14,409 bases of DNA from a bacterium (GTDB lineage: Bacteria; Hydrogenedentota; Hydrogenedentia; Hydrogenedentiales; SLHB01), in the NCBI GenBank assembly GCA_024231375.1, contig JAAEQP010001527.1, positions 1 through 14,409 of the forward strand, written 5' to 3'. A program made the translations under genes and the position numbers. Shown here in pieces: positions 1-14,409 of the stretch (its first letter is position 1; every line of letters begins with the position of its first letter). The notes under the pieces were generated by a model. That model had not been told where the DNA came from. It saw nothing but the letters and a program-made list of their open reading frames with translations, and made no database searches.

Positions 1-1537
1 ATCCTGCAACCATAGCAACCATGGCCAGTACCACTGCGCTCAGGCCGGTTCGAGCGGTGGTGAACCGACTCAGAACGTCCGCGCCGTAGCCCAACCCCTT
101 CACAAGAATCGCTTCCTGAACCGGCTTCAGGCCGAACACTGCGCTGCCCCCTGCCAACAAGGCGAGCACGGCACCGGTGGAACTGGCACGCTTCCAGTAT
201 AGCCCGGCCACGGTTAGGGCAAAGGCACCCGTGAAATAGATTCCGCCACTCACGGTCATGAAATCCCACAACCGCTGGCCAAGGGGGTAGAAATAGCTGA
301 TGACGTAGATGACGACGCCGGTAACAACGATCAGGGCGCGCGCCATGAAGACTTGAGTCTTCTGCGAGAGGGGCCGCCCCATCATCTCGGCGATGGGCAC
401 GCAAACATCGTTCACGATGACCGAACTCCAGCAGAGGAAGTAGCTGTCGTGGGTGGACATGAACGCCGCGATCATGGCTGCGGTGATGAGGCCGATAATC
501 CCGACCGGCAGGATGCGCCCCAGGAAGATGGGCATGGCGTAGAGCGATCCTACCGCTTCAACGCCCTCCTCCGCAGGGAAGAATGCGCCGTTCAGGAACG
601 CCGACTGTTTGATGTAGACAAACGCGCAGATGCCCCAGAAGCAGGGCACCATGATGCGGACCGCGTAGGACAGCGAAGCCCACATGAACTGCTTCTTCAG
701 CACGGTCTCGCTTTCGCAGGCCAAGGCGCGCGCCACGGACGTGGGCCACAAGGCACACCCCACCAGACCGGCCGAGAACAGCGTCCAGATGATGTACTCG
801 ATGCCGAAGGAACTCTCGGCGTCCAGCGGGTTGAAGCCCTTGCTGCCTTTCAGCTCCGCCATGGTCGCGAAGATGCGGTCCCATCCGAGGTGGCTTACAG
901 CCAGCACGGTCGCCAGGATAAGGCCGAAAGCCAATACCACGAACTGCACGTAGTCGGTCAGCACCACGGACACCATGCCGCCCAAAACCGTGTAGAACAA
1001 CACCAGTAGAAGCAGCACCAACATGACAACGGCCAGAGCCGCGTCGCTCTGCATGCCTGTGATGCCCACGATGAACTTGGCGCCGGCGTTCAGGAACATG
1101 CCCATGTTGAGGATACCGCCCGCGCTCAACATGATACCGCCCAGAATCCGGGTCTTGGGTCCAAAGCGTTTTCCGTAGAATTCCGGGATGGTCAGAACCT
1201 CATGGCGTCGCAATCCACCCAGGATGAAGCCGGTCACGCCGATGAAGAACGAGGCCACGCCCGCGATGGCGGCAATGTGAAATGCCGCGAATCCACCACT
1301 GAAGCCCATCTCCGCGTTGTACATCACGGTGACCAGGCCGAGTTCCGTTCCTGTGAGTGTGGCGATTCCCAGCGCGGTCCGAATGCCGCGGCCGGCGACG
1401 ACATAGTCCGCCATATCCGCCACATAGCGGTTGGCGATCAACCCGATGACAACGGAGATGGCGAGATACACGGCGACGATGGCCCAGTCGAAGGTGGTGA
1501 AGTTGGTTCCCGCGACGATCTGGCTCAGTTGATCCAT
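1..1537 (-). CDS. Sodium:solute symporter (SSS family), 3' end cut by window edge
   Basis: This is an inner-membrane carrier of the SSS family, which uses the sodium gradient to import sugars, inositol, amino acids or organic acids; the substrate is not readable here. I translated 512 residues by hand from the ATG at 1537, with no stop before base 1. Hydrophobic helices run throughout. Family hallmarks are the FYTVLGGMVSVVLTDYVQF segment (about residues 181-199), the AAMIAAFMSTHDS stretch (about 353-365) in the region that binds sodium in family structures, and DFMTVSGGIYFTGAFAL near residue 425. The length fits the family (about 500-600), so only a short C-terminal part is missing. The start is supported by the MDQLSQIVAG N-terminus just before helix 1 and by an in-frame TAG a few bases upstream; the ribosome binding site is weak (AAGGG, about 13 nt away). 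It probably imports the substrate or product of the upstream oxidoreductases (inference). Confidence 0.93.
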   Translation of the reverse strand, partial: MDQLSQIVAGTNFTTFDWAIVAVYLAISVVIGLIANRYVADMADYVVAGRGIRTALGIATLTGTELGLVTVMYNAEMGFSGGFAAFHIAAIAGVASFFIGVTGFILGGLRRHEVLTIPEFYGKRFGPKTRILGGIMLSAGGILNMGMFLNAGAKFIVGITGMQSDAALAVVMLVLLLLVLFYTVLGGMVSVVLTDYVQFVVLAFGLILATVLAVSHLGWDRIFATMAELKGSKGFNPLDAESSFGIEYIIWTLFSAGLVGCALWPTSVARALACESETVLKKQFMWASLSYAVRIMVPCFWGICAFVYIKQSAFLNGAFFPAEEGVEAVGSLYAMPIFLGRILPVGIIGLITAAMIAAFMSTHDSYFLCWSSVIVNDVCVPIAEMMGRPLSQKTQVFMARALIVVTGVVIYVISYFYPLGQRLWDFMTVSGGIYFTGAFALTVAGLYWKRASSTGAVLALLAGGSAVFGLKPVQEAILVKGLGYGADVLSRFTTARTGLSAVVLAMVAMVAG

Positions 1538-1828
1538 GGCTACTGCATTGCCCTTCGCAACTCAGTGTTGAGAAACTCTCTCGTCTCCGTCATGCCGAGC
1601 GCCGGCGAAGCATCTCGCATTCCAGGGCGATTTCCGGGAGAACGAGATCCCTCACTTCGTTCAGGATGACGGAAAGGGGACATCCCTTCCGTCCTGTTGT
1701 GGCTGCGAGCCGCCATCCCCACCCCACGCTTGTTGGGAAACACACGGCGTTACGCGCGTTCTTCACATGAAGGATGATACCGGCACAGCGAAGCGGTTTT
1801 CGGTTCGACCGAGGACCGTCGAAATGGC
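1538..1828. other. Non-coding interval between hydrolase-fold gene and symporter
   Basis: This 291-bp stretch contains no gene I can support. It holds the imperfect palindromic repeat at 1589-1670 and a small inverted repeat at 1804-1823 (TTCGAC, 8-nt loop, GTCGAA) just after the stop of the hydrolase-fold gene. That small hairpin is not followed by a T run on the minus strand, so it is not a convincing intrinsic terminator. Small reading frames here encode peptides containing HPERSEGSR or NEVRDL, which are translations of the repeat, not genes. A symporter promoter may lie here, but I see no clear -35/-10 pair. Confidence 0.6.
1589..1670. repeat. Imperfect palindromic intergenic repeat (HPERSEGSR/NEVRDL type)
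   Basis: The left arm, 1589-1617, begins GTCATGCCGAGCGCCGGCGA and ends CATCTCG. The right arm, 1643-1670, begins CGAGATCCCTCACTTCG and ends TTCAGGATGAC. The reverse complement of the right arm (GTCATCCTGAACGAAGTGAG, then GGATCTCG) aligns with the left arm with several mismatches, so the 82-bp unit can fold into a long imperfect stem with a loop of about 25 nt. Translated, it gives peptides such as RHPERSEGSRSP and SVILNEVRDLV. From memory, such peptides recur as spurious 'hypothetical proteins' in many phyla, which marks a dispersed DNA repeat and not a coding sequence. It ends 51 bp before the symporter start, so it may sit in the symporter 5' leader. No second copy was seen in the window. 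Confidence 0.75.
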
Positions 1829-2860
1829 TCAGAGCCACCGTTCGAACCACTCGTCAGCCAAGGCAAGCGTTTCAGGCGTGAGGCAGCGTCCATCCTTGTG
1901 TTCATGGTTGCACAAGGCATCGGACTCGCCCAGGAACTCGTATATCTTCCCCGCAAGCTTCGCGGCCTTCCCGCAGCTCTTCGTCTTGGCGAGGATGTCG
2001 TCATTGAGTGCCGTGAGCAGCAGGATGGGGCTCGGCGCGGCCATGGCGAGCACGTGTTCCCAGTCGAAGGGAAATTCCTTCGTCTCAACGGATTCGCGCA
2101 ACTTGGGCAAGATGGTGAGTCCATCGTCGTCCACCCACCGCGCCGCATTGGTGTCTTCGGTGAATCGGGTGAACCCGCAACTGGCCACACAGGCCTGCAC
2201 CCGTTCGTCGAAGGCCGAAAGCACGAGCGCATTGCACGCGCCCAAACCGTGGCCGATAACGCCCAAGCGCGCGCTGTCGACTTGCTTGAGTTCCGCCAAC
2301 ACATCCAGGGCATGCACATGGTCCGCCATCATCTTCCCGAGCATGGACATCTCGGGTTGGTCGGCGTAGAAACTGGCTGACTCGAACGCCTTCAACCGGC
2401 TGGACCCACGTTCGCCCGCGGTGACGCAATCCGGCGCCAAGGTGACGTATCCCATTTCGGCATAGTGCCGGGCGAAGGCCAGCAGGGGATTGCCCTGAAT
2501 GCCCGCAGGTTCGTCCTTGCCTTGGGCTGTCCGGTCGTGACAGCACAGAAGCGCGGGCATTTCCTCGTGTCCGTCCGGCACGAACAGCCACGCCGTCACC
2601 CGCGTCCACTCGTCCACGAAGTAATTCACGCGGCTTCGGGTGTATCCCGCTTGGTCGGTTTCGTCGATCGTCTTCGCTTGCAGGTCCGCTCGCACACTCG
2701 GCAATGCGCCCAAGGTGCGCGCGATGGACTTGATGATCGACTTCCGAGCCTTGGGCCACTCGGCGATGCTCTTCATGTTGCCAAGATCGACCATACCTTC
2801 CCAATCACTCCCGCTATTCCGTTCAACCTTCCAGGCCGCCCGAACCGACTGCAAACGCAT
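1829..2860 (-). CDS. Alpha/beta-hydrolase fold protein (dienelactone hydrolase/acetylxylan esterase-like), nucleophile Ser replaced by Gly
   Basis: The product is 343 residues if the start is at 2860. Its layout matches dienelactone-hydrolase/abhydrolase proteins: an N-terminal helical part (SIAEWPKARKSI), an oxyanion strand with LLCCHDRTAQGKDEPAG (about 104-120), the nucleophile elbow GVIGHGLGACNAL (200-212), CGFTRFTEDTNAARW (228-242), an acid-strand region LTALNDD (about 282-288), and a histidine loop NHEHKDGR (318-325) before a final helix EWFERWL. The elbow should read G-x-S-x-G but here reads GHGLG, with codon GGT at residue 205, so the usual serine nucleophile is absent. It may be catalytically dead, use another residue, or reflect a one-base change. 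No signal peptide is seen, so it is likely cytoplasmic. The start is uncertain: Met23 (2794) and Met29 (2776) are alternatives, and none has a good ribosome binding site. It follows the cytochrome b gene by 53 bp or more. Confidence 0.85.
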   Translation of the reverse strand: MRLQSVRAAWKVERNSGSDWEGMVDLGNMKSIAEWPKARKSIIKSIARTLGALPSVRADLQAKTIDETDQAGYTRSRVNYFVDEWTRVTAWLFVPDGHEEMPALLCCHDRTAQGKDEPAGIQGNPLLAFARHYAEMGYVTLAPDCVTAGERGSSRLKAFESASFYADQPEMSMLGKMMADHVHALDVLAELKQVDSARLGVIGHGLGACNALVLSAFDERVQACVASCGFTRFTEDTNAARWVDDDGLTILPKLRESVETKEFPFDWEHVLAMAAPSPILLLTALNDDILAKTKSCGKAAKLAGKIYEFLGESDALCNHEHKDGRCLTPETLALADEWFERWL

Positions 2861-2913
2861 GGTAGAGGGACGGGCAAGGAAACGTCAAATCCCGTCCGGT
2901 CCCTACCGCGCAC

Positions 2914-3633
2914 CTACGCGTCGCCGCCCTCGGCGCCTCCGCTTCCTTCACCACCGGTGGCTTCCCACCACAAGGGATGATGATGCTTGGCCCAGTCGTT
3001 GGCCACGTACCCGGTCAAGATGGACCACAGGGTGCCTGGGTTCGCGAGTGTAGCCAGATAGGCGTGAACGATCCCAAGCACCACAAACGCCAGCGTACCG
3101 TAGCGGTGGGCGATCAGCACCATTGTCTGGCCCTTTGCACCAAAGCCGGGCGCCACCAACAGCACCCCCGTGGCCATGGAGATCACGCCTAGAACGCCCG
3201 CGACCCAGAAGAAACCCTTCTGGCCCGCATTCAAACGCCCCGCCGGAACGTCTTGGCTCCCACCAAGGTAGCCGCCGAACCGCTTGGCCCACTCGAGGTC
3301 GTGCGGTGCGAACCGGCCGTCGGACGCCCACGTGACGACCATGGCCACGATGCCCAGTGTGAATACCGGTGCGGCCCAGCCGTGGACCACCCAGAGCAGG
3401 CCCGACAGGCGTTCCTCGTTGCCGACGGACGCCATGAACCCCGTGACCGCAAGCACGAGGAATCCCACCAAGGTCACGAGATGGATCAGCCGTTCCCAGA
3501 CGCTGAACCGGTGAATGCGCGGTTTGGTCTTGTCGATGGACACCCAACGCGGACGAAAAACCACTAGGTGGGCCAAACAGGCCGCGACGGTTCCAAGGGT
3601 CGCTACCATGAATATCGTACGAAACATGGTCAT
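2914..3633 (-). CDS. Membrane cytochrome b subunit, formate dehydrogenase gamma/thiosulfate reductase type
   Basis: This integral membrane di-haem cytochrome b belongs to the Ni-hydrogenase/formate dehydrogenase cytochrome b family, which passes electrons between a periplasmic redox partner and the quinone pool. From 3633 it has 239 residues with about five hydrophobic segments (roughly 5-25, 48-68, 80-101, 140-162, 170-195). Candidate haem-ligand histidines are H41 or H51 in RIHRFSVWERLIHLVT, H84 in VVHGW, H176 in IAHRYGT and H190 in GIVHAYLA. The C-terminal NPGTLWSILTGYVANDW followed by AKHHHPLWWE closely resembles the end of FdnI/FdoI proteins. It ends in a Gly/Glu-rich tail. Two in-frame ATGs lie at 3633 and 3627; the second (MFRTIF) is better, with AAGGA 7 nt upstream against 1 nt for the first. 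It follows the seven-haem cytochrome by only 4-10 bp, so the two products probably form a complex. No molybdopterin or iron-sulfur subunit is in the window. Confidence 0.9.
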   Translation of the reverse strand: MTMFRTIFMVATLGTVAACLAHLVVFRPRWVSIDKTKPRIHRFSVWERLIHLVTLVGFLVLAVTGFMASVGNEERLSGLLWVVHGWAAPVFTLGIVAMVVTWASDGRFAPHDLEWAKRFGGYLGGSQDVPAGRLNAGQKGFFWVAGVLGVISMATGVLLVAPGFGAKGQTMVLIAHRYGTLAFVVLGIVHAYLATLANPGTLWSILTGYVANDWAKHHHPLWWEATGGEGSGGAEGGDA

Positions 3634-3637
3634 ATCC

Positions 3638-5695
3638 TTATCGGTTCACGCGCTTGCCGGTGGCCACGAGGGCGCGAAACGCCGATTCGAGGCCAAGCAC
3701 ACCGTACCAAGCGAGGATGAAGGTCAACGCGCCGATGAGCAGCGCCATGCCACCCAGGAAGACGCCGCGGAACCGCGCCATTCCGCCCAAGGCGGCCAGG
3801 AGGGTCTCGGGCTGCTCCTGAAGGTCCAACATGCGCAGCGACGGACGCACACCCAGTCCCGTGACCGGCGATTCCGGCGCGACTTTCGCGCAGAAGAAGG
3901 GGGCGTCCTTGTCGTGACAGTCACGGCATCCGTTGGCGCCCAAGGCCTGCGCGGCTGGCCGCACATCGTGACCGATGGCCCAGGTGTAGGGGTTGGCCAC
4001 AGGATGCTCCGCGGATGTCATGGAGGTATCCGATTTCCTGGCGCGCACAAGACCGTCCGCGACGTATACCGGCTCACCGCCGAGAGACTCGTCCTCGGCC
4101 AGCATCGCAAGGACCTTAAGAACCTGATCCCGGTTCAATCGCCGATCGACCTCGGGTTCCTCTACCTCTTCCGTTGGTGCGGTCTCAGGCTCCTCGGCCT
4201 CTTCGGTCTCGGCATCAGCTTCCTCGGCTTCCTCGGCCTCCGCAGCCTTCGCGGCTTCGGCAGCGGCCTCGGCGGCCGCTTTGGCTTCCGCAACGCGTGC
4301 AGCCTTCTCCTCGGCGCGCACACGGTCGACGGCGGCGGTCACGACGTCCAAAGGCAACGGCGTGACTTCCTCTCCGTTCCGGACGCCCCAGAACGCCGGC
4401 CAGACCAGGTCGTAGAGGCCCGTGATGCCAGCCTCATCGCGCATGAAGACAGGGGAGGCGATGTACGGCAGATCCGTGTACCACCGGGCACGGCCGTGTA
4501 CGCCCAACCGGTTGGCGCGCGAGGTGCGCACGGTACCCGTCTTGGCGCCCGGCCACGGACCACTGTGACACGACGTACACGTCATTTTCTCGATGTGTAC
4601 CGCGGGCAATCCCAGATGCTTGGGCGTGGGCGCCATGAATCGTCCGCCCATGGCGTGACCGCCTGGGGCCGTTTCGTCGCCCATGTGGCAGCCGCGACAC
4701 GACAGCGTCGCGTTGAACGGGTCGGTCTCCTCGCCTTCGAATCCGCGCACCATGTCGTGGTCGAGTCCGTTGCGATGGCAGTCCACGCACGTCATACCCC
4801 GCGCCATGTGTACGTCGCCATCCTGCTGCCAATCCGCCGGTTTGGGACAGCACGCGGCGCCTTCCGACCCGGTTTCACAGGGGTCCCACGCAGTGTGGCA
4901 GAAGTAGCAGCGATTCGCGGGCGGTTTCCGCGGAATGTCAAAAAACACCCGGTTCTTGTCGTCGAACCGGCTGGCGTCATAGGACACGCTGGGCGGCGCG
5001 GCCCATGGATTGTCAGGATTCGGGCCATCGATGGGGTCGTAGCTGTCGGGCAACCGCGCAGCCACGTTGTCGACCACGGCCAGTCCACTGGCCGCCGTCG
5101 CCGCCCACCGGAAGTTCTCGCGGGCGAGTTGCTTCACCCACTCGCTCATATCCTGGTGCAGGTCGGCGTTGTGACAGGCCAAGCAGTTGATCTCGACCGG
5201 CCCGGACACGTGCCAGCGCGCGTTGGGATCCGGCACTTCGTCGTCCAGTTCAGCCATGTCGCCGCCGGGCGTGTGGCGTCCAAAGGTCTTGGTGAACTGC
5301 CAGGGCGTCAGACCGAAGGCATCCGGCGTCCAGACGCCGGGCCACTCGCGGTTCGACACCGGGGCCTGGGTGCCCGTGTTGACATCCACGAGAAACCATG
5401 GTTCGCCGGAACGCCCCGGTTTCCCGCCGTCGACATGCGAGTTGAAGTGCCACCCGCTGCCGATGGTTTCGTAGTCGTGGCACTTGCCACACGTGATGCG
5501 CGGTGAGAAGGGCCTCGGTTCCACGTCGTTCGGGCCGATTTCCTCGCCGTATTCGTCGTACAGAGGGATAAGGTGGACGGGCAGCGTACGGCTCCCGTCT
5601 TCGTGGGTGTTGATGGTCTCGAAATCCACAGGAGCGCCAAACGCGCCGACGGCCGTGAACACGAGAATCGCTGTGAATGCCGCTCCCTTACTCAA
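3638..5695 (-). CDS. Seven-haem c-type cytochrome, exported, C-terminal membrane anchor
   Basis: The 685-residue product has an N-terminal signal (AFTAILVFTAVGAFGA, about 6-21) and seven CxxCH haem-binding motifs: CGKCH 69-73, CLACH 171-175, CYFCH 263-267, CVDCH 303-307, CRGCH 333-337, CTSCH 373-377 and CRDCH 590-594. Extra cysteines cluster at 273, 282 and 283, with another at 602. An Ala/Glu-rich linker (about 455-516) separates haems 6 and 7, and a hydrophobic helix (about 644-666, GVFLGGMALLIGALTFILAW) should anchor the protein, leaving the haem domain in the periplasm. The start is TTG at 5695, overlapping the upstream Gfo/Idh stop as TTGA, with GGGGAG 8 nt upstream. With the downstream cytochrome b it should move electrons between the quinone pool and a periplasmic substrate or enzyme. 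I do not recognise the exact family; octahaem tetrathionate reductase-type and other multihaem reductases are possible relatives. Confidence 0.92.
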   Translation of the reverse strand: MSKGAAFTAILVFTAVGAFGAPVDFETINTHEDGSRTLPVHLIPLYDEYGEEIGPNDVEPRPFSPRITCGKCHDYETIGSGWHFNSHVDGGKPGRSGEPWFLVDVNTGTQAPVSNREWPGVWTPDAFGLTPWQFTKTFGRHTPGGDMAELDDEVPDPNARWHVSGPVEINCLACHNADLHQDMSEWVKQLARENFRWAATAASGLAVVDNVAARLPDSYDPIDGPNPDNPWAAPPSVSYDASRFDDKNRVFFDIPRKPPANRCYFCHTAWDPCETGSEGAACCPKPADWQQDGDVHMARGMTCVDCHRNGLDHDMVRGFEGEETDPFNATLSCRGCHMGDETAPGGHAMGGRFMAPTPKHLGLPAVHIEKMTCTSCHSGPWPGAKTGTVRTSRANRLGVHGRARWYTDLPYIASPVFMRDEAGITGLYDLVWPAFWGVRNGEEVTPLPLDVVTAAVDRVRAEEKAARVAEAKAAAEAAAEAAKAAEAEEAEEADAETEEAEEPETAPTEEVEEPEVDRRLNRDQVLKVLAMLAEDESLGGEPVYVADGLVRARKSDTSMTSAEHPVANPYTWAIGHDVRPAAQALGANGCRDCHDKDAPFFCAKVAPESPVTGLGVRPSLRMLDLQEQPETLLAALGGMARFRGVFLGGMALLIGALTFILAWYGVLGLESAFRALVATGKRVNR

Positions 5696-7077
5696 ACCGT
5701 GAACTCCCCGGGTCCGAACTCAATGACACGGTTGGCTTCGACGGCTTCGTTCACCTTGAGAACTTCGACGGCGGTTTCGTATCCGACTTCCGCCGGGCAG
5801 TTAAGGGGCGTTCCCTCGCGGACGGCGTCGAAGAAGTTCTCCAGATGAGGTTGGTGGACCGGCTTATCCAATTCGACGGGCAGGTCCCACGCGCCGAGCG
5901 GTTTCGATACGCGAACATCCTGATTGACATCGGTCGCGTCGCCGGCCGGCGCCTCGGCAACCACTTGGTCCAGCAGCCCGGCTCGCGCCAACTGCTCCCA
6001 CCGCTCCTGATCGGCGTGGGCCTCTTTCAGGAAGTGGTTTCCGCGCTGTGGCACTTCCGAGATCACCAGGGTTCCGTCCACGCCCATGAAGTTCTCGTAG
6101 AACCCTCCATTGCTCGTGGTGGTGAGAACCTGGTAGAACGCTCGGGCCACGCCCTGCTCCGTCTCGTACTCGTAGACGGCCATGACGTTGTCGTACCATT
6201 CGTGGTGGGGATAGAAATCGACGCCGCCACTTGCCATCACTGATTTCGGATGGGTGCCGAAGACCCAGTTGAAGATGTCGATCTGGTGCGATCCCAGGTC
6301 CACGATCGGTCCGCCACCGTACTTGCGGTACCACCGCCAGTTGCGGAAGTGTTGCATGGAGTCATAGCCGTACTTCGCGAGGGTCTCCTCGGGGATCTCG
6401 TAGCGTTTCGGCCATCCCAGGTCCTCGCTCTTCGCCCGGTTCCATTGACCGTAGCCCTGCGTGACGCGGCCGACTAGGGCCTCGTCGCGAATCATCCGGT
6501 CGATGGCGTGCTTGTACCGCGGATTGCTCCGGCGCTGGTGGCCAATCTGAAGGGCCTTACCCGTCTCGCGCTGCTTGAGCACCATGGCCTTCGCTTTTTC
6601 GAGACTGTTGGACATCTCCTTCTCGCAGTACACGTGAAGTCCAGCGTCCATACAGGCGATAGCGTGCTCGGCGTGCATGAAGTCCGGCGTGGCCACGATG
6701 GCCACGTCGAGGTCCTTCTCCTGTGCCAGCAGTTCGCGGTAGTCCTCGTAGACGTTGACGTCGTGACCGTACCGCTTCAGCGTGCGCGATCCGCGCGTCT
6801 GGCTGTATCCCCAGATGTCGCACACCGCCTTGAACCGCAGGCCGGGGATACGCAGCGCGGCGCTCATGAGCACCATGCCCTGCGCACCAAGGCCGATGAG
6901 GGCCACATTCAGTTCTTTGGTTCCAGGAGTGGGTCCGGCCTCAGCGGCCTTGTCCTGTGCGACGCTCTTGCGCGCCAGCAACAAACCGGCCCCCAGGGTC
7001 GCAGTGGACGCCATGAACCCGCGTCTGGTGGTCCCCTCACTCCTCGATTTCGATTGATTCGTCTCGTTTTCAGGCAT
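5692..7077 (-). CDS. Gfo/Idh/MocA family oxidoreductase, Tat-exported (EKE variant)
   Basis: This NAD(P)-dependent sugar/polyol dehydrogenase-family protein has 461 residues from the ATG at 7077. That start has GAGAGGTGG just upstream and leaves a Tat signal (TTRRGFMAS, residues 16-24, then a hydrophobic stretch); the longer frame up to 7197 would run into the preceding gene. The Rossmann fold begins VALIGLGAQG (58-67), with IVATPDFMHAEHAI near 127-140. The motif normally EKP reads CEKEMSNS (EKE at 152-154), which moves or removes the proline that shapes the cofactor/substrate site. The C-terminal domain carries GSHQIDIFNW (262-271), the usual place of the active-site histidine. Folded export through Tat suggests a tightly bound cofactor in the periplasm, as known for Zymomonas glucose-fructose oxidoreductase. 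The 4-bp overlap with the cytochrome gene suggests a joint role. Substrate unknown. Confidence 0.92.
   Translation of the reverse strand: MPENETNQSKSRSEGTTRRGFMASTATLGAGLLLARKSVAQDKAAEAGPTPGTKELNVALIGLGAQGMVLMSAALRIPGLRFKAVCDIWGYSQTRGSRTLKRYGHDVNVYEDYRELLAQEKDLDVAIVATPDFMHAEHAIACMDAGLHVYCEKEMSNSLEKAKAMVLKQRETGKALQIGHQRRSNPRYKHAIDRMIRDEALVGRVTQGYGQWNRAKSEDLGWPKRYEIPEETLAKYGYDSMQHFRNWRWYRKYGGGPIVDLGSHQIDIFNWVFGTHPKSVMASGGVDFYPHHEWYDNVMAVYEYETEQGVARAFYQVLTTTSNGGFYENFMGVDGTLVISEVPQRGNHFLKEAHADQERWEQLARAGLLDQVVAEAPAGDATDVNQDVRVSKPLGAWDLPVELDKPVHQPHLENFFDAVREGTPLNCPAEVGYETAVEVLKVNEAVEANRVIEFGPGEFTV
5704..5709 (-). promoter_or_regulatory. Ribosome binding site fixing the TTG start of the seven-haem cytochrome
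   Basis: On the minus strand GGGGAG lies 8 nt before the TTG at 5695, inside the last codons of the upstream Gfo/Idh gene. The stop TGA (5694-5692) and start TTG (5695-5693) overlap as TTGA. No ATG offers a better start that keeps the signal peptide, so a translationally coupled TTG start is favoured. Confidence 0.7.
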
Positions 7078-7169
7078 CACGCCACCTCTCGTTTCTTCCC
7101 TATGCCGCACGTCCACGCGTGCTTGACCTGAGCATACCTCAACGCTTGTATACGATGCCAATCGGCCGT

Positions 7170-8129
7170 CTACTTCTCGTCTTGGAAACCGCGCCACTCC
7201 TCGGCCAACTGGTCCTCAGTCAAATCGCCACGGTGAATCACCAGCCTGTAACGCAGTCGAATGGGGACACCCTTGGGCATCGGGACCAGTGCTCCACCGG
7301 GATGGATGGGTTGGAAGAAGTTGAGCGTCGGATATTCACGCCATTCTTGAGGATGACCGGGATTCGACGCATGTTGAAGCAGTGCCACACCACTCCGTCC
7401 GGACCCGCCCGGAAACTGGGCAGTATAGTCTGCCCAAGCCCTACGGTCCGCGGCCTCAACTGGGTCGGTATAGAGCGCGATCCGTTGCCCCTTGCCGGTG
7501 GCCATTCGGATGTTGAAGCCGCTATAGGCGGCCTCGATCCTCCCACAGAAGCGCAACCCGTCCACGACTGGCGTCAGGACGATGTCGAAATCCACTGCGC
7601 GGCCCAGCGAAGACTGTCGATACACCCGAATTGTGGCGACCTCGTCAACCACCTTCTCTGAATCATCCCACATCCACCTGCAGTGACTACGGATAACGAC
7701 GCTGTCGGAGGGGTTCTCGATGGTGGGCACTTCCACGGGGCGAGCCCACAGTCCCCCGGTCACGGGACCCGTGTAAGGATTGCGGACCGCAAACATGTCG
7801 CGCGTCTCGCCGTTCCATTCCACAGTGGCCCAGGCCCAATTCACCGCGCGGTGATGCACATGGTCGGAGGGGAAATCCTCCGTCATGAGTTCGCCGTCCA
7901 GACCGTACAGGGCACAGACATAGTCGCCACGCGCGAATGCCGGGTCCACACCCTCGGGAACGGGTGTCGTCCCCTGGCTGTAGCGTAGAACAGGCGTGCC
8001 GCGGTCAGACACGTCAACAAACCGGGTTTCGGCATCGTAAACGGCGCGCAGGCTGTCGCTATCCACTTCTTCAGCCGCCGTGGCCGCGGCGCCCAGGGAC
8101 AGAAGACCGACCACGAGACGCAGGCTCAT
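7170..8129 (-). CDS. PmoA-like DUF6807 family protein, exported
   Basis: The 319-residue product starts with a signal peptide (MSLRLVVGLLSLGAAATAAEE; likely cleavage near residue 19). It matches what I remember of the DUF6807/'PmoA' family (Pfam PF14100), common in Planctomycetota, Verrucomicrobiota and Bacteroidota: FPSDHVHHRAVNWAWATVEW (about 86-105), WMWDDSEK (152-159), the central beta-rich part, GFNIRMATGKG (204-214), LLQHASNPGHPQEWREYP (250-267) and the final RLRYRLVIHRGDL (291-303). The histidine pair of DHVHHR is a conserved feature. The family name is misleading: there is no link to particulate methane monooxygenase. Its function is not established; the fold is thought to resemble carbohydrate-related beta-sandwich proteins. 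It starts 3 bp after the preceding Gfo/Idh stop, with GGAG about 10 nt before the ATG, so the two are co-transcribed and probably act on the same compound class. Confidence 0.88.
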   Translation of the reverse strand: MSLRLVVGLLSLGAAATAAEEVDSDSLRAVYDAETRFVDVSDRGTPVLRYSQGTTPVPEGVDPAFARGDYVCALYGLDGELMTEDFPSDHVHHRAVNWAWATVEWNGETRDMFAVRNPYTGPVTGGLWARPVEVPTIENPSDSVVIRSHCRWMWDDSEKVVDEVATIRVYRQSSLGRAVDFDIVLTPVVDGLRFCGRIEAAYSGFNIRMATGKGQRIALYTDPVEAADRRAWADYTAQFPGGSGRSGVALLQHASNPGHPQEWREYPTLNFFQPIHPGGALVPMPKGVPIRLRYRLVIHRGDLTEDQLAEEWRGFQDEK

Positions 8130-8132
8130 CTG

Positions 8133-9146
8133 CTAGATCTCCGAGATGGCTACAGGGCGGCCTTCCTGTGCAGACCTATCAGCCGCGAGACACACCGCCA
8201 TGGTCTTGGCTCCGTCGTCCAGGTCGGGCAGAGGCTGCTTGTCGTCGATGATGCAGTCCAGCAAGTGCGACACTTCGCCCTGGAACGGGTGATGGGCCAC
8301 ATCGCCGCTGTCCGGCAACACGCACGGGATGGTTGAGAACGCGTTCTGGCCGGGGAACAACTTGGGTGCATACACCCGATCATTGCGGAGCGATCCCTCC
8401 GTGCCGTAGACGCAGATGTTGAACACGTAAGGCATTTGGGCGTCGAAACAGCTCGCGGTACGGCCGATGATGCCGTCTTCGAATTTCACGATGGCGCTGA
8501 GGGTGCCGGGGTACTCGATGGGGTTCTCGGTCTTCACCTGGTAGGCGCAGACCTCGACTGCGTCGCTACGTGCGAACCAGCGGAGCGCGTCCACGGCGTG
8601 GCACCCGCCCGCGAGAATGGAGGTCCCGCCCTGATCGACAGTGCCCAGCCATTTCTCCTCGGGTGCGCACCAGATGCGATGCAGATAGTCCACTTCGACC
8701 ATGAAGACGTTGCCGAACGCGCCCTGTTCGATGAGACTGTCGACGGTTTGCAGTAGAGGGTTCCAATGCAGCACGAAACTGACGACGGTCTTCACGCCGG
8801 TCTTATTCACGGCCTCCTGCTGCCTACGCACATCGTCCATGGTCAAGGCCACGGGCTTCTCAATGACGACATGCTTGCCCGCCTCGGCGGCTGCCACCAC
8901 GTAATCCGTGTGCAGATCGTGGGGCGTAGCCACGACTACGATGTCCACATCGTCGCGCTGAAGGGCCGCCGCGTAATCCGTCTCCACGCCGCATTGGATT
9001 TGGTGCTTGTCACGACAGGCCTCGGCATTCGCCTTCGACCGGCTGACCAGTGCAGTCACTTCGGACCGCGCATCGTGGGTGAACCCTTTGATGTACTCGT
9101 CGGCCACCCAACCACACCCGACAATCGCTGCTCCCAACGTCTTCAT
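8133..9146 (-). CDS. Gfo/Idh/MocA family oxidoreductase, cytoplasmic
   Basis: This is a 337-residue NAD(P)-dependent dehydrogenase-family protein without a signal peptide, close to the usual 330-390 residues of soluble members. Nucleotide-binding motif AAIVGCGWVADEY occupies about 6-18; VVATPHDLHTDYV is near 71-83; the canonical catalytic motif is intact as VIEKPVALT (94-102, EKP 96-98); the C-terminal domain carries AGGCHAVDALRWF (179-191) with the active-site histidine. The start is well fixed: AGGAGG lies 7 nt before the ATG at 9146. It is the first gene after the hairpin at 9178-9216 and runs 3 bp into the DUF6807 gene. Likely substrate class is a sugar, inositol or sugar acid, but nothing in the sequence identifies which. 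Confidence 0.93.
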   Translation of the reverse strand: MKTLGAAIVGCGWVADEYIKGFTHDARSEVTALVSRSKANAEACRDKHQIQCGVETDYAAALQRDDVDIVVVATPHDLHTDYVVAAAEAGKHVVIEKPVALTMDDVRRQQEAVNKTGVKTVVSFVLHWNPLLQTVDSLIEQGAFGNVFMVEVDYLHRIWCAPEEKWLGTVDQGGTSILAGGCHAVDALRWFARSDAVEVCAYQVKTENPIEYPGTLSAIVKFEDGIIGRTASCFDAQMPYVFNICVYGTEGSLRNDRVYAPKLFPGQNAFSTIPCVLPDSGDVAHHPFQGEVSHLLDCIIDDKQPLPDLDDGAKTMAVCLAADRSAQEGRPVAISEI

Positions 9147-9177
9147 GCCTCATCCTCCTCTATTCGCCCCGAAAGAA

Positions 9178-9216
9178 CGCTGGGGCACGCACCCGACATC
9201 GGCCCGCGCCCCAGCG
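9178..9216 (-). terminator. GC-rich hairpin after the HEAT/discoidin gene, possible terminator or attenuator
   Basis: A perfect 9-bp inverted repeat, CGCTGGGGC (9178-9186) and GCCCCAGCG (9208-9216), has a 21-nt loop. On the minus strand it forms 24 nt after the HEAT/discoidin stop codon and is followed by TTCTTTCGGGG, a short pyrimidine-rich run and not a full T tract. It could be a weak intrinsic terminator or a processing/stability element that separates expression of the genes on either side. Confidence 0.45.
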
Positions 9217-9239
9217 GCATGCATTCTCACTCGCTCGCG

Positions 9240-11534
9240 CTACTTCATCGTGATGGTCATCTCGTGGATGGACCAGTAATTTCCGTCGGCCTTGCCCGTC
9301 TGTACGATACGCAGGTACCGCCCGCTGTTGGCGCCCAGCTTGATCTCCATCACGGGCGTCTTCCCCTCACCCGTGGCGACGGGGTCACCGAGGTTGTCGG
9401 GATTGTTGGACACGTACACGTCGTAGCCGCGCGGGTAATCGTGCGCAGATCCCGACGTATCCAGGACAATGGAATCCATCCGCGCGTCGTCCCAGCCGAC
9501 GTCCAACTGGAACCATTCACCACCCTTCATGACTGTGCCCGTGTCCCATCGTGTTCCGGGGTTCTTGTCAAACGCGTTCTTCCAGGCCCCCGCGTTGTGC
9601 GACGCCGTTGCCGTGCATCCTTTCGACCGAATCTTGCCCAATGCCTGCTTGGCCTCCGCCTTCAGCGCCTCGTCATCGAGGTAGGCCTCCACCACAGCCA
9701 CCACTTCTTTCGCGCCGACATTCGCCATGCCGGACAGAATCAGTTTCTTCTCGTCAACACGCGTGGCCACCTCCATTGAGTCTTGATAGAGTTTGAGCGT
9801 GTCCAAGGCCGGACGGTCGCTCGGAAGCCCCACCATGCGCACGAACCCGCGAAGGGCAAGAATCCGATGGACTTCCGCATCCGCATCCGTAGCCAGCGTT
9901 CTGAGGTCGTCCACGGGCGCCGCGTTCGGCCATTCGGCCAGAGCGCGAATCGCTGCGTCTTTCACGTCAGCATTTGCGTCCCCCATGGCCGTACGAATCG
10001 GGTCCAGAGCCGTGTTGTCGCCGATGAGGGGAAGCGTGCCCAGCAACGCGCACTTCGCACGCGCGTCTGTAGCGCCCGGCAAGGCTGCCAAGACTGCCGC
10101 AGCGCGTTGATTTCCATCCGGCACCTGCTTCGCCAGCGTCACGACCGTCTTGGCGGCCTGCTTTCGCTCGCCGTCTGTCTTCGCCTTGACGAGACAATCA
10201 ACAACCGCCGGCAACTCGCCGACAGTACCGATCTCCGCCAACGAACTCAGCGCAGCCTTGCGCACGCCTTCGTCCGCGTCCGACGTAGCGGCCAGCACCG
10301 ACGGTACCGCGTTAGCAGTCCTGCGTTCGGTCGCCGCGCGTATCAACTCAACGTGAACGGCGGACCCGGCGCCGCCCATCTGCTCGACGATGGCCTCGTC
10401 CACGCGGTCGCCTTGTAGCCGTGTCAGGCTGGCTTGGGCCGCTTTACGCGCCGGCCCTTCGGAACCGGCGGCGGCATCCGCAAGCATGGACACAACCGAC
10501 TCGTCACCAATGGCGCCCAATGCACTCAGTGCGGCGGCCTGCACGGAAGCGTCTTCGCTTTCGGCAGCCTTCGTGACGGCCGGAAGGGAAGCCGCGTCGC
10601 CGCGGTCGGCCAAGGCGTCCAGCATCAGCACTTGCACACTGGGACTGCACCTTCCGAGTTGCCCCGCAAACGCCTTCGTGGCGCCCTTCGCAGGCATTGT
10701 GCGCACCAGTCCAGCAGCCACGGCCTGCATGGAAGCGTCGTCGCTTGCGAGGAGGTCGAGAATCATGGGAACACTCTTCTTCCCTTGGGCCTTCACCAAT
10801 CCTTGCAGGGCCGCAACGCGGAATTGCCGGGGCTGCTCCGCTTCATACATTTCGTTGTAGATCTTGGACGCGCCGGACTCTTTGCCCGCGGCGAGGAGTC
10901 GGTCAGCACAGAGAAGGTACGAATCGGCTGCCAGAGCCGAGTTACCAGCCATCGGCGCCAGAACGGCAATCGACTCCTTGCCACCGATGCGGCCAAGCGC
11001 CACAATTGCGGCTTCGGACACGGCTGCGTCGCCGTCCTCCGCCAACGGTGCAAGCGCGGCCACGGCAGACGGAGTCTCCCGCACACCCAGCGAATTGATG
11101 ATGCCGACCTTGCCCGCACCGCTCGCGCCGGCCAGCGCGGCCAAGAGCGCGTCGCCGGCCGCCTTTCCGGCAATGCGTTCCAAGGCATACCGGGCCATGT
11201 CAGCGGTCTTCTCATCCGCCAACAACGCCGCGACAGCCGCCACGTTCTCGTCCGACCCGATGAGCGACAGTTGCCTGCACACGAACTGCTTGGACTCGTA
11301 CGTAGCGTCCGTGCCCAACAGGCCAGCCAGCGCCGCCGCCAACTCTTGGCGTTGTGCGTCCGATGCGACGGATGCACGGGCCATATCCTCCACTACCGTC
11401 AACGCCTCACGGCTCTGCCCGAATTTGTACTGCGCGATAGCGTCGATGGCCGTTTGCTGGTTCTGCGCCAACGCAGGAAGCGTCGCACACACAGCCAACA
11501 CAACTACCGTCAAGATCCCCATCCAGCGATTCAT
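9240..11534 (-). CDS. Secreted HEAT-repeat protein with C-terminal discoidin (F5/8 type C-like) domain
   Basis: The 764-residue product starts at the ATG at 11534, with GGAGGG 7 nt upstream; an in-frame TTG at 11552 is less likely. A signal peptide (GILTVVVLAVCATLPALAQ, about 6-24) is followed by a long alpha-helical array of about 30-residue HEAT/PBS-lyase-like repeats (roughly 80-640). These have recurring phrases such as AVSEAAIVALGRIG, SVQAAALSALGAIGDES, GVRKAALSSLAEIG and DVKDAAIRALAEW. The last 125 residues (about 640-764) read as a discoidin-type beta-sandwich: ATASHNAGAWKNAFD, TRWDTG, WFQLDVGWDDARMDSI, GYDVYVSNNPDN, GRYLRIVQTG and YWSIHEMTI. Such domains bind carbohydrate or surface polymers, and HEAT arrays bind proteins. 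It has no catalytic motif and is probably an exported scaffold or binding protein that may bring a glycan close to the exported oxidoreductases (inference). It lies 49 bp downstream of the preceding Gfo/Idh gene. Confidence 0.9.
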   Translation of the reverse strand: MNRWMGILTVVVLAVCATLPALAQNQQTAIDAIAQYKFGQSREALTVVEDMARASVASDAQRQELAAALAGLLGTDATYESKQFVCRQLSLIGSDENVAAVAALLADEKTADMARYALERIAGKAAGDALLAALAGASGAGKVGIINSLGVRETPSAVAALAPLAEDGDAAVSEAAIVALGRIGGKESIAVLAPMAGNSALAADSYLLCADRLLAAGKESGASKIYNEMYEAEQPRQFRVAALQGLVKAQGKKSVPMILDLLASDDASMQAVAAGLVRTMPAKGATKAFAGQLGRCSPSVQVLMLDALADRGDAASLPAVTKAAESEDASVQAAALSALGAIGDESVVSMLADAAAGSEGPARKAAQASLTRLQGDRVDEAIVEQMGGAGSAVHVELIRAATERRTANAVPSVLAATSDADEGVRKAALSSLAEIGTVGELPAVVDCLVKAKTDGERKQAAKTVVTLAKQVPDGNQRAAAVLAALPGATDARAKCALLGTLPLIGDNTALDPIRTAMGDANADVKDAAIRALAEWPNAAPVDDLRTLATDADAEVHRILALRGFVRMVGLPSDRPALDTLKLYQDSMEVATRVDEKKLILSGMANVGAKEVVAVVEAYLDDEALKAEAKQALGKIRSKGCTATASHNAGAWKNAFDKNPGTRWDTGTVMKGGEWFQLDVGWDDARMDSIVLDTSGSAHDYPRGYDVYVSNNPDNLGDPVATGEGKTPVMEIKLGANSGRYLRIVQTGKADGNYWSIHEMTITMK

Positions 11535-11583
11535 TCCTATGCCCTCCGGCAAACCACGGCCTGAAGCCGGTTTCAGTTGATGT

Positions 11584-12912
11584 CTACAAACGCCACGGAC
11601 TCCGGGCCGGACGCCACGTGAGCCGGTTGGCCTCGTCGTCGCCGATGAACTGCTCCGCGACGGGGTCCCACTTGAGGGGCCGCTTCAGCACGTATGAAAT
11701 GTTGCCCAACTGACACACCGTCCCGGTGCGATGCCCCACTTCGGCGTGGGCGATGGGTTTCTCGCGGGTGCGGATGCAGTGCAGCCAATCCTCCCGATGT
11801 CCCATGCCACGTCCAAGATGGTCGTCGTCGGGGCCAAGCCGCGTTTGAAGGATATTTGCCGGGTCCGCCTTGATGAATCCACGGTCGACCCGGATCGTGC
11901 CCTTGGTGCCATGGAACACGCAGCCTGCCTCGCCGCCGTGATGCATGGGGATCCCGTTCTCGTAGATGAAGGTCATGCGACCGTCGTCTGTGCTGCCGGC
12001 CGGAAGAATCTCCACCGGGCCCGAATGATCCATATCCATAGCCCATTGAGCGATGTCGAAATGGTGTGCGCCAAAATCGCTTAGCGACCCGCCCGCATAA
12101 TCCCTGAAGTACCGCCAGTGGGGATACCCATCGTAATCAAGGGGACACAATGTGGAGCTGTACGGACGCCACGGCGCAGGTCCGAGCCACAGGTCCCAGT
12201 CCAACGTCGGCGGCACGGGTTCTTCGGGCAAATCCCATCCGGGCGCCGGCGGACCACCCACGTTGATGTCGACGCTCTTCAGTTCGCCGATGGCGCCGCA
12301 TCGCACATACTCGGCGGCGCGCCGGAACCGGCCGGCGTATTCGGATCGCTGCTGGCTTCCCGTCTGGAACACACGCCCGTATCGTTCCACCGCGTCGACA
12401 AGGGCCCGGCCTTCGGCGATGGTGCGGGTCAGCGGCTTCTCGCAGTAGACGTCTTTGCCTGCTTTGAGCGCCTGGATGGAGTTGATGGCATGCCAGTGGT
12501 CCGGGGTCGCAATGCACACGGCGTCAATGTCGTCGCGGGCAAGCAACTCGCGAAAATCACGGTACATATCGCATCCGGAGTAGCCCGCGCGATCGCCACG
12601 GCCTGCGTAGGCGTCCTCAACCATTTTCTTGCTCTGTTCGAGCCGTTTGGATTCGACATCGCTCACGGCAAGAATTTGGACATCGGAATGGTTCCGGAAA
12701 GCATTCACGTGGGACTGACGTCCCTGTTTCCCCACCCCGATGAACCCCAAGGTAATCCGGTTGCTCGCCGCTACGGCCCCGTCCGCGCCAAGCGCGGAAG
12801 AGGGAATGATGTAGGGAAACGCGACGGCCGCGGCCGTGGCTGCGGCCCCCTTGCGCAGAAAGTCCCGCCGCGTGCATTTCGCTCCGCGTGCTTTGTTCAC
12901 GGAATCGCTCAT
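11584..12912 (-). CDS. Gfo/Idh/MocA family oxidoreductase, Tat-exported (second of tandem pair)
   Basis: The 442-residue product starts at the ATG at 12912, with GAGGAAG 8 nt upstream; a longer open frame to 13089 would overlap the preceding gene. A Tat signal (CTRRDFLRKGAAATAAAVAF, about 13-32) is followed by PYIIPSSALG. The Rossmann motif ITLGFIGVGKQG is at 53-64; CIATPDHWHAINSI near 133-146; the canonical YCEKPLTRT has EKP at 158-160; GAHHFDIAQW at 281-290 carries the putative catalytic histidine. The C-terminus ends in RSPWRL, the R-x-P-W type tail that many members of this planctomycete/verrucomicrobial subfamily share. It resembles the upstream gene product in layout and many motifs, so the two look like an old tandem duplication. 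Substrate unknown; periplasmic location is expected. Confidence 0.93.
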   Translation of the reverse strand: MSDSVNKARGAKCTRRDFLRKGAAATAAAVAFPYIIPSSALGADGAVAASNRITLGFIGVGKQGRQSHVNAFRNHSDVQILAVSDVESKRLEQSKKMVEDAYAGRGDRAGYSGCDMYRDFRELLARDDIDAVCIATPDHWHAINSIQALKAGKDVYCEKPLTRTIAEGRALVDAVERYGRVFQTGSQQRSEYAGRFRRAAEYVRCGAIGELKSVDINVGGPPAPGWDLPEEPVPPTLDWDLWLGPAPWRPYSSTLCPLDYDGYPHWRYFRDYAGGSLSDFGAHHFDIAQWAMDMDHSGPVEILPAGSTDDGRMTFIYENGIPMHHGGEAGCVFHGTKGTIRVDRGFIKADPANILQTRLGPDDDHLGRGMGHREDWLHCIRTREKPIAHAEVGHRTGTVCQLGNISYVLKRPLKWDPVAEQFIGDDEANRLTWRPARSPWRL

Positions 12913-12934
12913 AGTGTCTTCTTCCTCATCTCGA

Positions 12935-12950
12935 CCGTGGCTGACCACGG
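12935..12950 (-). promoter_or_regulatory. Small hairpin in the leader of the second Gfo/Idh gene
   Basis: A perfect inverted repeat CCGTGG-CTGA-CCACGG lies 22 nt upstream of the ATG at 12912, immediately before the ribosome binding site. It could be an operator half-site pair or an RNA stem affecting initiation. No T run follows, so it is not a terminator. It may be chance in GC-rich DNA. Confidence 0.25.
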
Positions 12951-13001
12951 GGTTGCAGTGCGGAACGGCGGTGCGTTTGGGCGCAGGCCCGCCTGACTTG
13001 A

Positions 13002-14345
13002 CTACAGATGCCACGTACCACGGCGTGCGCGCGTCAGTTTCCGGTCGGCCTCGGGATCGTTCACGAATCGTTCGCGCACCGGATCCCACTGGGCCTTGCG
13101 TCCAAGCTTCATGACAATGTTACCCAGATGGGCGATGGTGATGGCGCGGTGGGCCGCTTCGATGGGTGTGATGGTCTTCGCCCGCGTCTTGCGGCATTCC
13201 AGGAAATTGCCGTGATGATTGTTGCTTCGGTAGAGCTGCGTCTCGTTCGGTCCGATGCGCTCTTCGAGCAGGGACTTGGGGTCTGCATCCCATCCACCGC
13301 GGTCCACCCACACCCAACCGTCGGTGCCGATGAAGCGCGCGCCGCCCCGTACACGGTTCGACACCACCATCGTGAAGCCCTTCGGCGCAACGGGCGACGC
13401 ACCGGGCGCGTACTTACACTCGAACCTGTAGCTAGTGGCGGCGTTCCAGAGCCCGTCGCGGGGGTATTCCACTTCAATGGGAGTCACCTCGACCGGGCCC
13501 GTGCCCTCGGTGCCCATGCCCCAGTTGGCGATGTCGCCATGGTGGGCGCACCAGTCGGTGAGTTGTCCGCCCGAGTAGTCCAGAAGCCAGCGGAAATTCC
13601 CATGGCAGCGCTTCACGGTGTAGGGCGCTTGCGGGGCCGGGCCCAGCCACAAATCGTAGTCGAATCCTTCGGGAATCGGCATCTCGGGCTGCGGGCCGCA
13701 ACTCGGACCGGTGGGCAGTCCCACCTCAACGGTGTGAACCTCGCCAATGCGGCCGTTGCGCACCAGTTCGCACGCCGGACGGAACCGCCCCGTCGACCGC
13801 TGCCAACTGCCCGTCTGCCACACCGTGCCGTACCGGTTCACGGCGTCGCACATGGCGCGGCCTTCGGAGATGGTGAGGGCCAAAGGTTTCTCGGCGTAGA
13901 TGTCCAACCCGGCTGTGGCTGCAGCGATGGCGGGAATGGCATGCCAGTGGTCGGGGGTCGCAATCGAGGCCGCGTCCAGGTCGCCCCGCACGAGCAGCTC
14001 GCGAAAATCGTTGTAGCCTGCGCAGTCCTCGTTGCCGTAGCGCTGGTTGACAATACCGATGGCCCGGTCGCGGTGTGCCTTGTCCACGTCGCACACGGCC
14101 ACCACTTGGACTTCCTTGAACCCAAGAAAGTTTCTCATGTTCCCAGTGCCCATGCCGCCAAGGCCGATACATCCGATCACCGTGCGATTGCTGGGTGCGA
14201 CCGTGCCGTCAAGACCGAGTGCCGACGCGGGAACGATGTAGGGTGCGGCTACTGCCGTCGCGGCAAGCGCCGACGTGCGTTTGAGAAATCCGCGGCGGCT
14301 CACCTGCCCGCCCGACAAGTTGCTCTTGCTCAGACGCTTGCTCAT
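13002..14345 (-). CDS. Gfo/Idh/MocA family oxidoreductase, Tat-exported (first of tandem pair)
   Basis: The 447-residue product starts at the ATG at 14345, with AGGAG 8 nt upstream. A Tat signal (VSRRGFLKRTSALAATAVAA, about 15-34) is followed by PYIVPASALG. Then come the Rossmann motif CIGLGGMG (59-66), SIATPDHWHAIPAI (127-140), the intact AEKPLALT (EKP 152-154) and DWCAHHGDIANWGMG (264-278) with the likely catalytic histidine. The tail is RRGTWHL, a variant of the R-x-P-W ending of the subfamily. It is co-directional with the next Gfo/Idh gene, 89 bp away. The 64 bp beyond its start reach the window edge; a TAG on the minus strand at 14400-14398 could end a preceding gene, but too little is visible to say. 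Likely acts on a sugar or polyol in the periplasm; substrate unknown. Confidence 0.94.
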   Translation of the reverse strand: MSKRLSKSNLSGGQVSRRGFLKRTSALAATAVAAPYIVPASALGLDGTVAPSNRTVIGCIGLGGMGTGNMRNFLGFKEVQVVAVCDVDKAHRDRAIGIVNQRYGNEDCAGYNDFRELLVRGDLDAASIATPDHWHAIPAIAAATAGLDIYAEKPLALTISEGRAMCDAVNRYGTVWQTGSWQRSTGRFRPACELVRNGRIGEVHTVEVGLPTGPSCGPQPEMPIPEGFDYDLWLGPAPQAPYTVKRCHGNFRWLLDYSGGQLTDWCAHHGDIANWGMGTEGTGPVEVTPIEVEYPRDGLWNAATSYRFECKYAPGASPVAPKGFTMVVSNRVRGGARFIGTDGWVWVDRGGWDADPKSLLEERIGPNETQLYRSNNHHGNFLECRKTRAKTITPIEAAHRAITIAHLGNIVMKLGRKAQWDPVRERFVNDPEADRKLTRARRGTWHL

Positions 14346-14409
14346 TGTGTGTTCTCCTGTTCGCTTGATGGAATGGACGGCGTCCCGCGAATCCCTTCTA
14401 ACGGGCCAC

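Follow-up and report, generated by a model that had tools for sequence, protein, structure and literature searches.

An exported Gfo/Idh oxidoreductase genetically linked to a seven-haem cytochrome c and a cytochrome b: a candidate periplasmic sugar-derivative dehydrogenase:quinone oxidoreductase

Introduction

Oxidoreductases of the Gfo/Idh family normally work with a soluble cofactor. GFOR of Zymomonas, a member of this family, is exported and holds its cofactor; to our knowledge, electron disposal outside the cytoplasm by an exported Gfo/Idh enzyme holding nicotinamide adenine dinucleotide (phosphate), NAD(P), has been described only with a second sugar as acceptor. Here, we analyze a stretch of 14,409 nucleotides from a Hydrogenedentota bacterium (GenBank assembly GCA_024231375.1, contig JAAEQP010001527.1, positions 1–14,409; the whole stretch is referred to as the window), whose minus strand carries, in this order, the genes of an exported Gfo/Idh oxidoreductase, a seven-haem cytochrome c and a cytochrome b. 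The three proteins probably constitute a membrane-bound periplasmic sugar-derivative dehydrogenase:quinone oxidoreductase, in which electrons would flow from the Gfo/Idh enzyme through the c-haems and the b-haems to menaquinone; we put the probability of this reading at roughly 0.55. If it is true, periplasmic sugar oxidation is an entry point of respiration, and the set, which is spread over many phyla by record title, may contribute to the way in which uncultured bacteria turn over carbohydrates.

Several described systems resemble this set in part. GFOR and DgpA have the common Gfo/Idh fold (approximately 20–23% identity to the window protein) but differ in that a second sugar recycles their cofactor, and we know of no cytochrome described for either of them. 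Formate dehydrogenase N of Escherichia coli (FdnGHI) likewise combines a periplasmic catalytic part, a wire and a gamma-type cytochrome b, but its catalytic part is a molybdenum protein instead of a Gfo/Idh enzyme and its wire is made of iron–sulphur clusters instead of seven c-haems. LacABC, a lactose 3-dehydrogenase, is a flavin enzyme of the GMC family with a cytochrome c subunit, and differs from the window set in not being built on a Gfo/Idh protein. DgpA follows a ping-pong mechanism in which the bound cofactor is NADH and a 3-oxo sugar serves as the oxidant (PMC11239390), BT2158 of Bacteroides is a periplasmic glycoside 3-dehydrogenase (PMC11300592), and the periplasm of Caulobacter is where LacABC and DUF1080 act on lactose, which is reminiscent of the window set in that periplasmic sugar oxidation takes place at the membrane beside PF06439 proteins (PMC9007349). 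BT2158 is an exported Gfo/Idh protein too, and the window set resembles it by the 3-keto-disaccharide hydrolases found near many of its relatives; the window Gfo/Idh nevertheless scores far below the cut-off of the BT_2158 glycoside 3-dehydrogenase family (NF058561; 79.7 versus 750 bits). Finally, the ApbE-linked extracytosolic electron transfer systems also associate ApbE with membrane proteins and multihaem cytochromes, as do most well-flanked relatives of the window set, but differ from it in that the canonical flavinylation motif is not conserved in its module.

No account of the three-gene set was found in the literature, as covered by titles and the openings of abstracts, with most subscription papers unreachable and supplements outside the search. 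The words Gfo and Planctomyc are absent from the main text of two surveys of ApbE systems (PMC8238504, PMC11334425), and Gfo is absent from that of genome papers on Caldithrix abyssi and freshwater Verrucomicrobia.

Results and Discussion

Conservation of the three-gene set

The Gfo/Idh gene (5692..7077, minus strand, ATG at 7077) encodes 461 residues with a twin-arginine translocation (Tat) signal and Pfam matches, and the cytochrome c gene (3638..5695, minus strand, TTG start) encodes 685 residues with a signal peptide and seven CxxCH motifs. They overlap at letters 5692–5695, which read TTGA on the minus strand, that is, the TTG start of the cytochrome c gene and the TGA stop of the Gfo/Idh gene. 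The cytochrome b gene (2914..3633, minus strand; 239 residues, PF01292, formate-dehydrogenase-gamma type) begins 4 bp beyond the stop codon of the cytochrome c gene; with its second ATG as the start, the gap would be 10 bp. An earlier note on this DNA, made from the letters alone, had described exactly this layout, which our analysis confirms, coordinates included; it had also proposed a check of the gene order across genomes and named two outcomes that would speak against a functional set, namely that Gfo/Idh homologues be unlinked from the cytochromes, or that the cytochromes usually accompany another catalytic subunit.

At least 1297 of 7998 scored candidates, a capped set, are related to the cytochrome c at E ≤ 0.001. 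A profile built from 38 of the 120 relatives listed matched 215 relatives in a species-genome collection, and we surveyed the loci (L-numbers below) of the best 80 of these, all titled as metagenome-assembled and assigned by record title to Planctomycetota, Hydrogenedentota, Omnitrophota, KSB1, Calditrichota, Acidobacteriota, Bacteroidota, Verrucomicrobia, Aminicenantes and others. In 73 of them, the cytochrome c gene is immediately preceded, on the same strand, by a Gfo/Idh gene of the same subfamily (at least 240 bits on its own profile, other Gfo/Idh frames reaching 136 at most); this gene is fragmentary in L003, at a contig end, and in L038, in a masked stretch, and the sequences of L018 and L068 start at the cytochrome. 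On the other side, a cytochrome b profile match adjoins the cytochrome c in 71 loci, and L045, which is among the profile misses, has a PF01292 protein at that place.

The linkage was also examined from the Gfo/Idh side, in 294 genomes of the phylum to which the L005 genome belongs, with at most five candidates scored per genome. The subfamily is present in 16 of these genomes (E ≤ 1e-80), and the cytochrome c adjoins it in 12, with ApbE between the two in L093 and L095. The cytochrome c itself is found at 424 bits or more in 17 genomes, 13 of which also have the Gfo/Idh (hypergeometric P ~1e-16); when weaker matches are counted, these numbers become 24 and 14, so that 10 of the 24 cytochrome-positive genomes lack this Gfo/Idh. 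In genome G138, the Gfo/Idh and the cytochrome cluster are both present but far apart. The conserved order and this co-occurrence rule out a chance neighbourhood. Moreover, the divergences of Gfo/Idh and cytochrome c are correlated (r 0.82, against a null maximum of 0.24 in 199 permutations of 74 sets), a correlation that was computed on distances, not on a tree, and to which the common descent of the hosts contributes. Altogether, neither of the outcomes feared in the earlier note materialized among related genomes: the Gfo/Idh homologues are linked to the cytochromes, and the closer cytochrome relatives have no other usual catalytic partner, such a partner being confined to distant members.

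Predicted properties of the three proteins

The window Gfo/Idh exceeds the Pfam cut-offs for the NAD-binding Rossmann and C-terminal domains of the Gfo/Idh/MocA family (PF01408, 65.7 bits for a cut-off of 24; PF22725, 53.2 for 27; PF02894, 48.8 for 22.9), and comparison of its predicted structure (predicted local distance difference test score, pLDDT, 87.9) agrees on the fold. The twin-arginine pair at residues 18–19 is kept in at least 90% of 50 aligned rows, across which the glycine motif and Asp87 are invariant. These features are consistent with an enzyme that holds bound NAD(H), presumably acquired in the cytoplasm before Tat export. The EKP motif typical of Gfo/Idh enzymes is replaced by EKEMS in the window protein and in 119 of 120 relatives among the matches listed. 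The substrate would be a sugar derivative, oxidized at a glycoside hydroxyl, perhaps at C3. Matches to the 3-keto-disaccharide-hydrolase profile occur in 36 of the 61 loci with more than 5 kb of upstream sequence, in 30 of these 36 on the same strand and within 8 kb. In L048 (3609–6643), two Gfo/Idh genes of the subfamily (681 and 524 bits) lie in tandem ahead of the cytochrome.

In the cytochrome c, the histidines of the seven CxxCH motifs and seven additional histidines (41, 83, 296, 313, 360, 367 and 576) are invariant in all 53 rows of an alignment that we chose from the 120 relatives among the matches listed. An 81-row alignment of the loci retains the first six additional histidines in 80 or 81 rows; at position 576, it has His in 26 rows, another residue in four and a gap in 51, many rows ending before that position. 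Seven CxxCH motifs are present in the cytochrome c frame of 69 of 80 loci and six in the other 11. Since the additional invariant histidines are as numerous as the haems, all seven c-haems are probably bis-histidine coordinated, and because this would leave no open catalytic haem, the protein is more readily seen as a wire than as a reductase. A membrane-type helix (residues 643–676) is found at the C-terminus of the predicted structure (pLDDT 78.1). The best solved structural match, a weak one, is octahaem tetrathionate reductase (1sp3); membership of the corresponding family (TIGR04315) was considered and rejected, the score being 17.9 bits for a cut-off of 375 and the protein having seven CxxCH motifs, not eight haems. 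Residues ~450–520 form an Ala/Glu-rich low-complexity insert; relatives of the protein differ widely in length.

The earlier note had also suggested that electrons go to the quinone pool, and the cytochrome b lends support to this suggestion: it passes the cut-off for the formate dehydrogenase gamma subunit (TIGR01583; 121.6 versus 115.85 bits) and FdnI (1kqf_C, E 1.5e-10), with which it has the NAGQK and WAK-HHP stretches in common, is the single protein of solved structure to which its sequence is related. Residues His84, His176 and His190 align with His57, His155 and His169 of FdnI, which, together with His18, we take to be the FdnI haem ligands; His51 lies outside the printed alignment, at the place expected for the first ligand, so that the window protein has the full set of four candidate ligands. 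The L005 relative obtains 35.3 bits for the cut-off of 115.85. Among 72 aligned cytochrome b rows, the window included, His84 is present in 70, His176 in 64, His190 in 37 and His51 in nine, eight rows being gapped at positions 176 and 190; the quinone site or the electron path may differ between cytochrome b branches. The acceptor of the cytochrome b electrons would be a quinone, probably menaquinone. A complete formate dehydrogenase complex was also considered and rejected, as none of the 10 window genes scanned matches a molybdenum or iron–sulphur subunit family.

Partner genes and the hydride-to-electron step

Of the loci surveyed, 51 extend for 9 kb or more past the cytochrome c; there, the set is followed by a discoidin-like protein (41 loci), an Agl23-like membrane protein (39 loci) and the flavin transferase ApbE (40 loci). 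The ApbE identity was confirmed in L010 (PF02424) and that of the Agl23-like protein in L005 (TIGR03663, 189.4 bits for a cut-off of 126.25); for the discoidin-like protein, only L011 gives more than a weak match. These partners and the nearby 3-keto-disaccharide hydrolases are new with respect to the earlier note. In L005, the discoidin-like, Agl23-like and ApbE genes occupy positions 13971–17340, downstream of cytochrome b, an arrangement found in most well-flanked loci. The window, whose flank is short, has no ApbE gene; a hydrolase and a sodium symporter gene are found there instead, as in L006. Since the eight carrier genomes have only one to four ApbE genes each, the linkage between ApbE and the module is far above chance.

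NADH delivers a hydride and haems accept single electrons; the presence of ApbE in most relatives hints at a flavin between the two, and the module ApbE sharpens the question of how this step proceeds. ApbE attaches flavin mononucleotide (FMN) at the motif D-x-x-[ST]-G-A-[ST] (PMC12052999). Matches to this motif in the module families are scattered (cytochrome c, 4 of 81 rows; PMT, 2 of 48; ApbE, 2 of 48; discoidin, 1 of 54). FMN_bind (PF04205) is found in six of eight genomes, the exceptions being those of L057 and L059, neither of which has a match to PF03116 (NQR2/RnfD), an absence that is uncertain in draft genomes. The only ApbE match in the draft genome of L057 is the module's own. A degenerate DNA pattern for the target motif, which proved too loose, gave six forward matches (control, five) and 23 reverse matches (control, 11) in the L057 genome, and 48 forward (control, 37) and 58 reverse (control, 38) in that of L059; of the 29 places in the L057 genome, five were inspected, and the motif was in frame at three, none of which was plainly a flavoprotein. 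A candidate D-A-V-T-G-A-T reading lies ~2.6 kb from a non-module ApbE gene in genome G005 (contig C28, ~111866–115357).

Proposed mechanism and alternatives

According to the mechanism that we favor, the Gfo/Idh enzyme would be exported through the Tat pathway with NAD(H) in its fold and would oxidize a sugar derivative in the periplasm; electrons would then leave it, possibly through a flavin, for a membrane-anchored wire of seven bis-histidine c-haems and pass through the b-haems of the formate-dehydrogenase-gamma-type subunit to menaquinone. The three proteins would presumably form a complex. The direction toward quinone is suggested by textbook potentials, by the gamma type of the cytochrome b and by the neighbourhood of the distant locus L114 (3277–8007), where a seven-haem cytochrome and a cytochrome b lie beside a FAD/4Fe-4S dehydrogenase, which would naturally act as their donor and speaks for inward electron flow. 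Seen in this light, the set would be a variant of the periplasmic dehydrogenase:quinone oxidoreductases, distinct from formate dehydrogenase, BT2158-family enzymes and tetrathionate reductase. The periplasmic dehydrogenase delivering electrons through seven haems to quinone that the earlier note had envisaged is thereby upheld as regards gene linkage and the type of cytochrome b, but the step from hydride to single electrons is missing.

Several observations weigh against this mechanism. The window encodes no one-electron/two-electron converter, and neither [ST]GA[ST] nor the canonical ApbE target motif is conserved in the six module families. Most cytochrome b relatives have one only of the two haem-ligand pairs. 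L063, L064 and L072 carry the cytochrome with no Gfo/Idh upstream; the L064 genome has a Gfo/Idh of the subfamily elsewhere (647 bits), and the best subfamily matches in the genomes of L063 and L072 reach 157 and 120 bits. Conversely, four of the 16 Gfo/Idh carriers have no adjoining cytochrome: in L092/L098, genes for a discoidin-like protein, an Agl23-like protein and ApbE come after the Gfo/Idh, in L096/L102 the Gfo/Idh is accompanied by ApbE only, and in the two that stand alone (L082/L097 and L094/L100) by none of the module partners. The conversion of hydride to single electrons is the weakest step of the mechanism. A flavin would solve the problem, and the module ApbE suggests one at this point. 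The set might then be a widespread respiratory sugar dehydrogenase running from the NAD(H)-holding Gfo/Idh through a flavin set by the module ApbE at a non-canonical site to the seven c-haems, the cytochrome b and quinone, and would supply the electron acceptor that has been missing for sugar oxidation by exported Gfo/Idh enzymes, an elaboration that we put forward tentatively and regard as rather doubtful in its entirety.

Three alternatives were weighed against the respiratory dehydrogenase. In the first, the Gfo/Idh would act as an NAD-dependent glycosidase with no net redox change (C3 oxidation, elimination, hydration and re-reduction), and the cytochromes would only rescue enzyme stuck with NADH or serve other exported enzymes. 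Such an enzyme requires no electron acceptor, yet the Gfo/Idh is tied to a seven-haem wire in the great majority of the loci surveyed from either side; the separate 3-keto-disaccharide hydrolases near many loci also argue against this explanation, which we consider unlikely. The second, in which a second sugar serves to recycle the cofactor bound to the Gfo/Idh, in the manner of GFOR and DgpA, and the cytochromes are merely co-regulated and serve another donor, has these described enzymes as a precedent, but the gene overlap in the window, the fixed order over many phyla (by record title) and the correlated divergence exceed what co-regulation needs, and it appears improbable. Outward or reversed flow, from quinol through cytochromes b and c to substrate reduction at the Gfo/Idh or to an external acceptor, also appears improbable: all seven haems appear to be bis-histidine coordinated, with no open site, and reduction of NAD by menaquinol is unfavourable on textbook potentials.

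Other cytochrome arrangements and genes flanking the set

That the cytochrome usually serves another enzyme was rejected for the close relatives but is true of distant ones. The 10 cytochrome-positive genomes that lack this Gfo/Idh show several arrangements. A protein of the FGE-sulfatase type immediately precedes the cytochrome in L110, L111 and L115, as determined with Pfam, and a protein of comparable length with a similar start, not scanned with Pfam, is present at that place in L116, L117 and L118. In L115 (2447–7838), ApbE and another twin-arginine Gfo/Idh adjoin the seven-haem cytochrome and the sulfatase-type protein (Pfam); the same sulfatase-type arrangement was seen in L111 and L116–L118 by profile only. 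In L112, genes for a cytochrome b, a discoidin-like and an Agl23-like protein are present with no Gfo/Idh of the subfamily, the sequence of L109 stops just upstream of the cytochrome, L114 is the locus with the FAD/4Fe-4S dehydrogenase described above, and L113 shows no clear arrangement. Among the surveyed loci, L072 has an unrelated gene (148–1146, RhuM/Fic-like by eye only) immediately ahead of the cytochrome c, where the Gfo/Idh would be expected.

All the genes flanking the set in the window are on the minus strand and were assigned by profile matches. Upstream of the set lie genes for a DUF6807 protein (7170..8129; L006 has one too), a Gfo/Idh protein with no export signal (8133..9146), a HEAT-repeat protein with a C-terminal F5/8-type domain (9240..11552; matched by tblastn in 26 of the 80 loci) and a second and a third exported Gfo/Idh (11584..12912 and 13002..14345), both of which retain the EKP motif. 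Downstream are an acetyl xylan esterase-like alpha/beta hydrolase (1829..2860) and a sodium:solute symporter that extends past the window edge (2..1537), both at the same position in L006. This locus, from a Hydrogenedentota assembly, is the closest to the window among the best 80 and is syntenic with it from the HEAT gene through the symporter gene, except for one additional Gfo/Idh gene.
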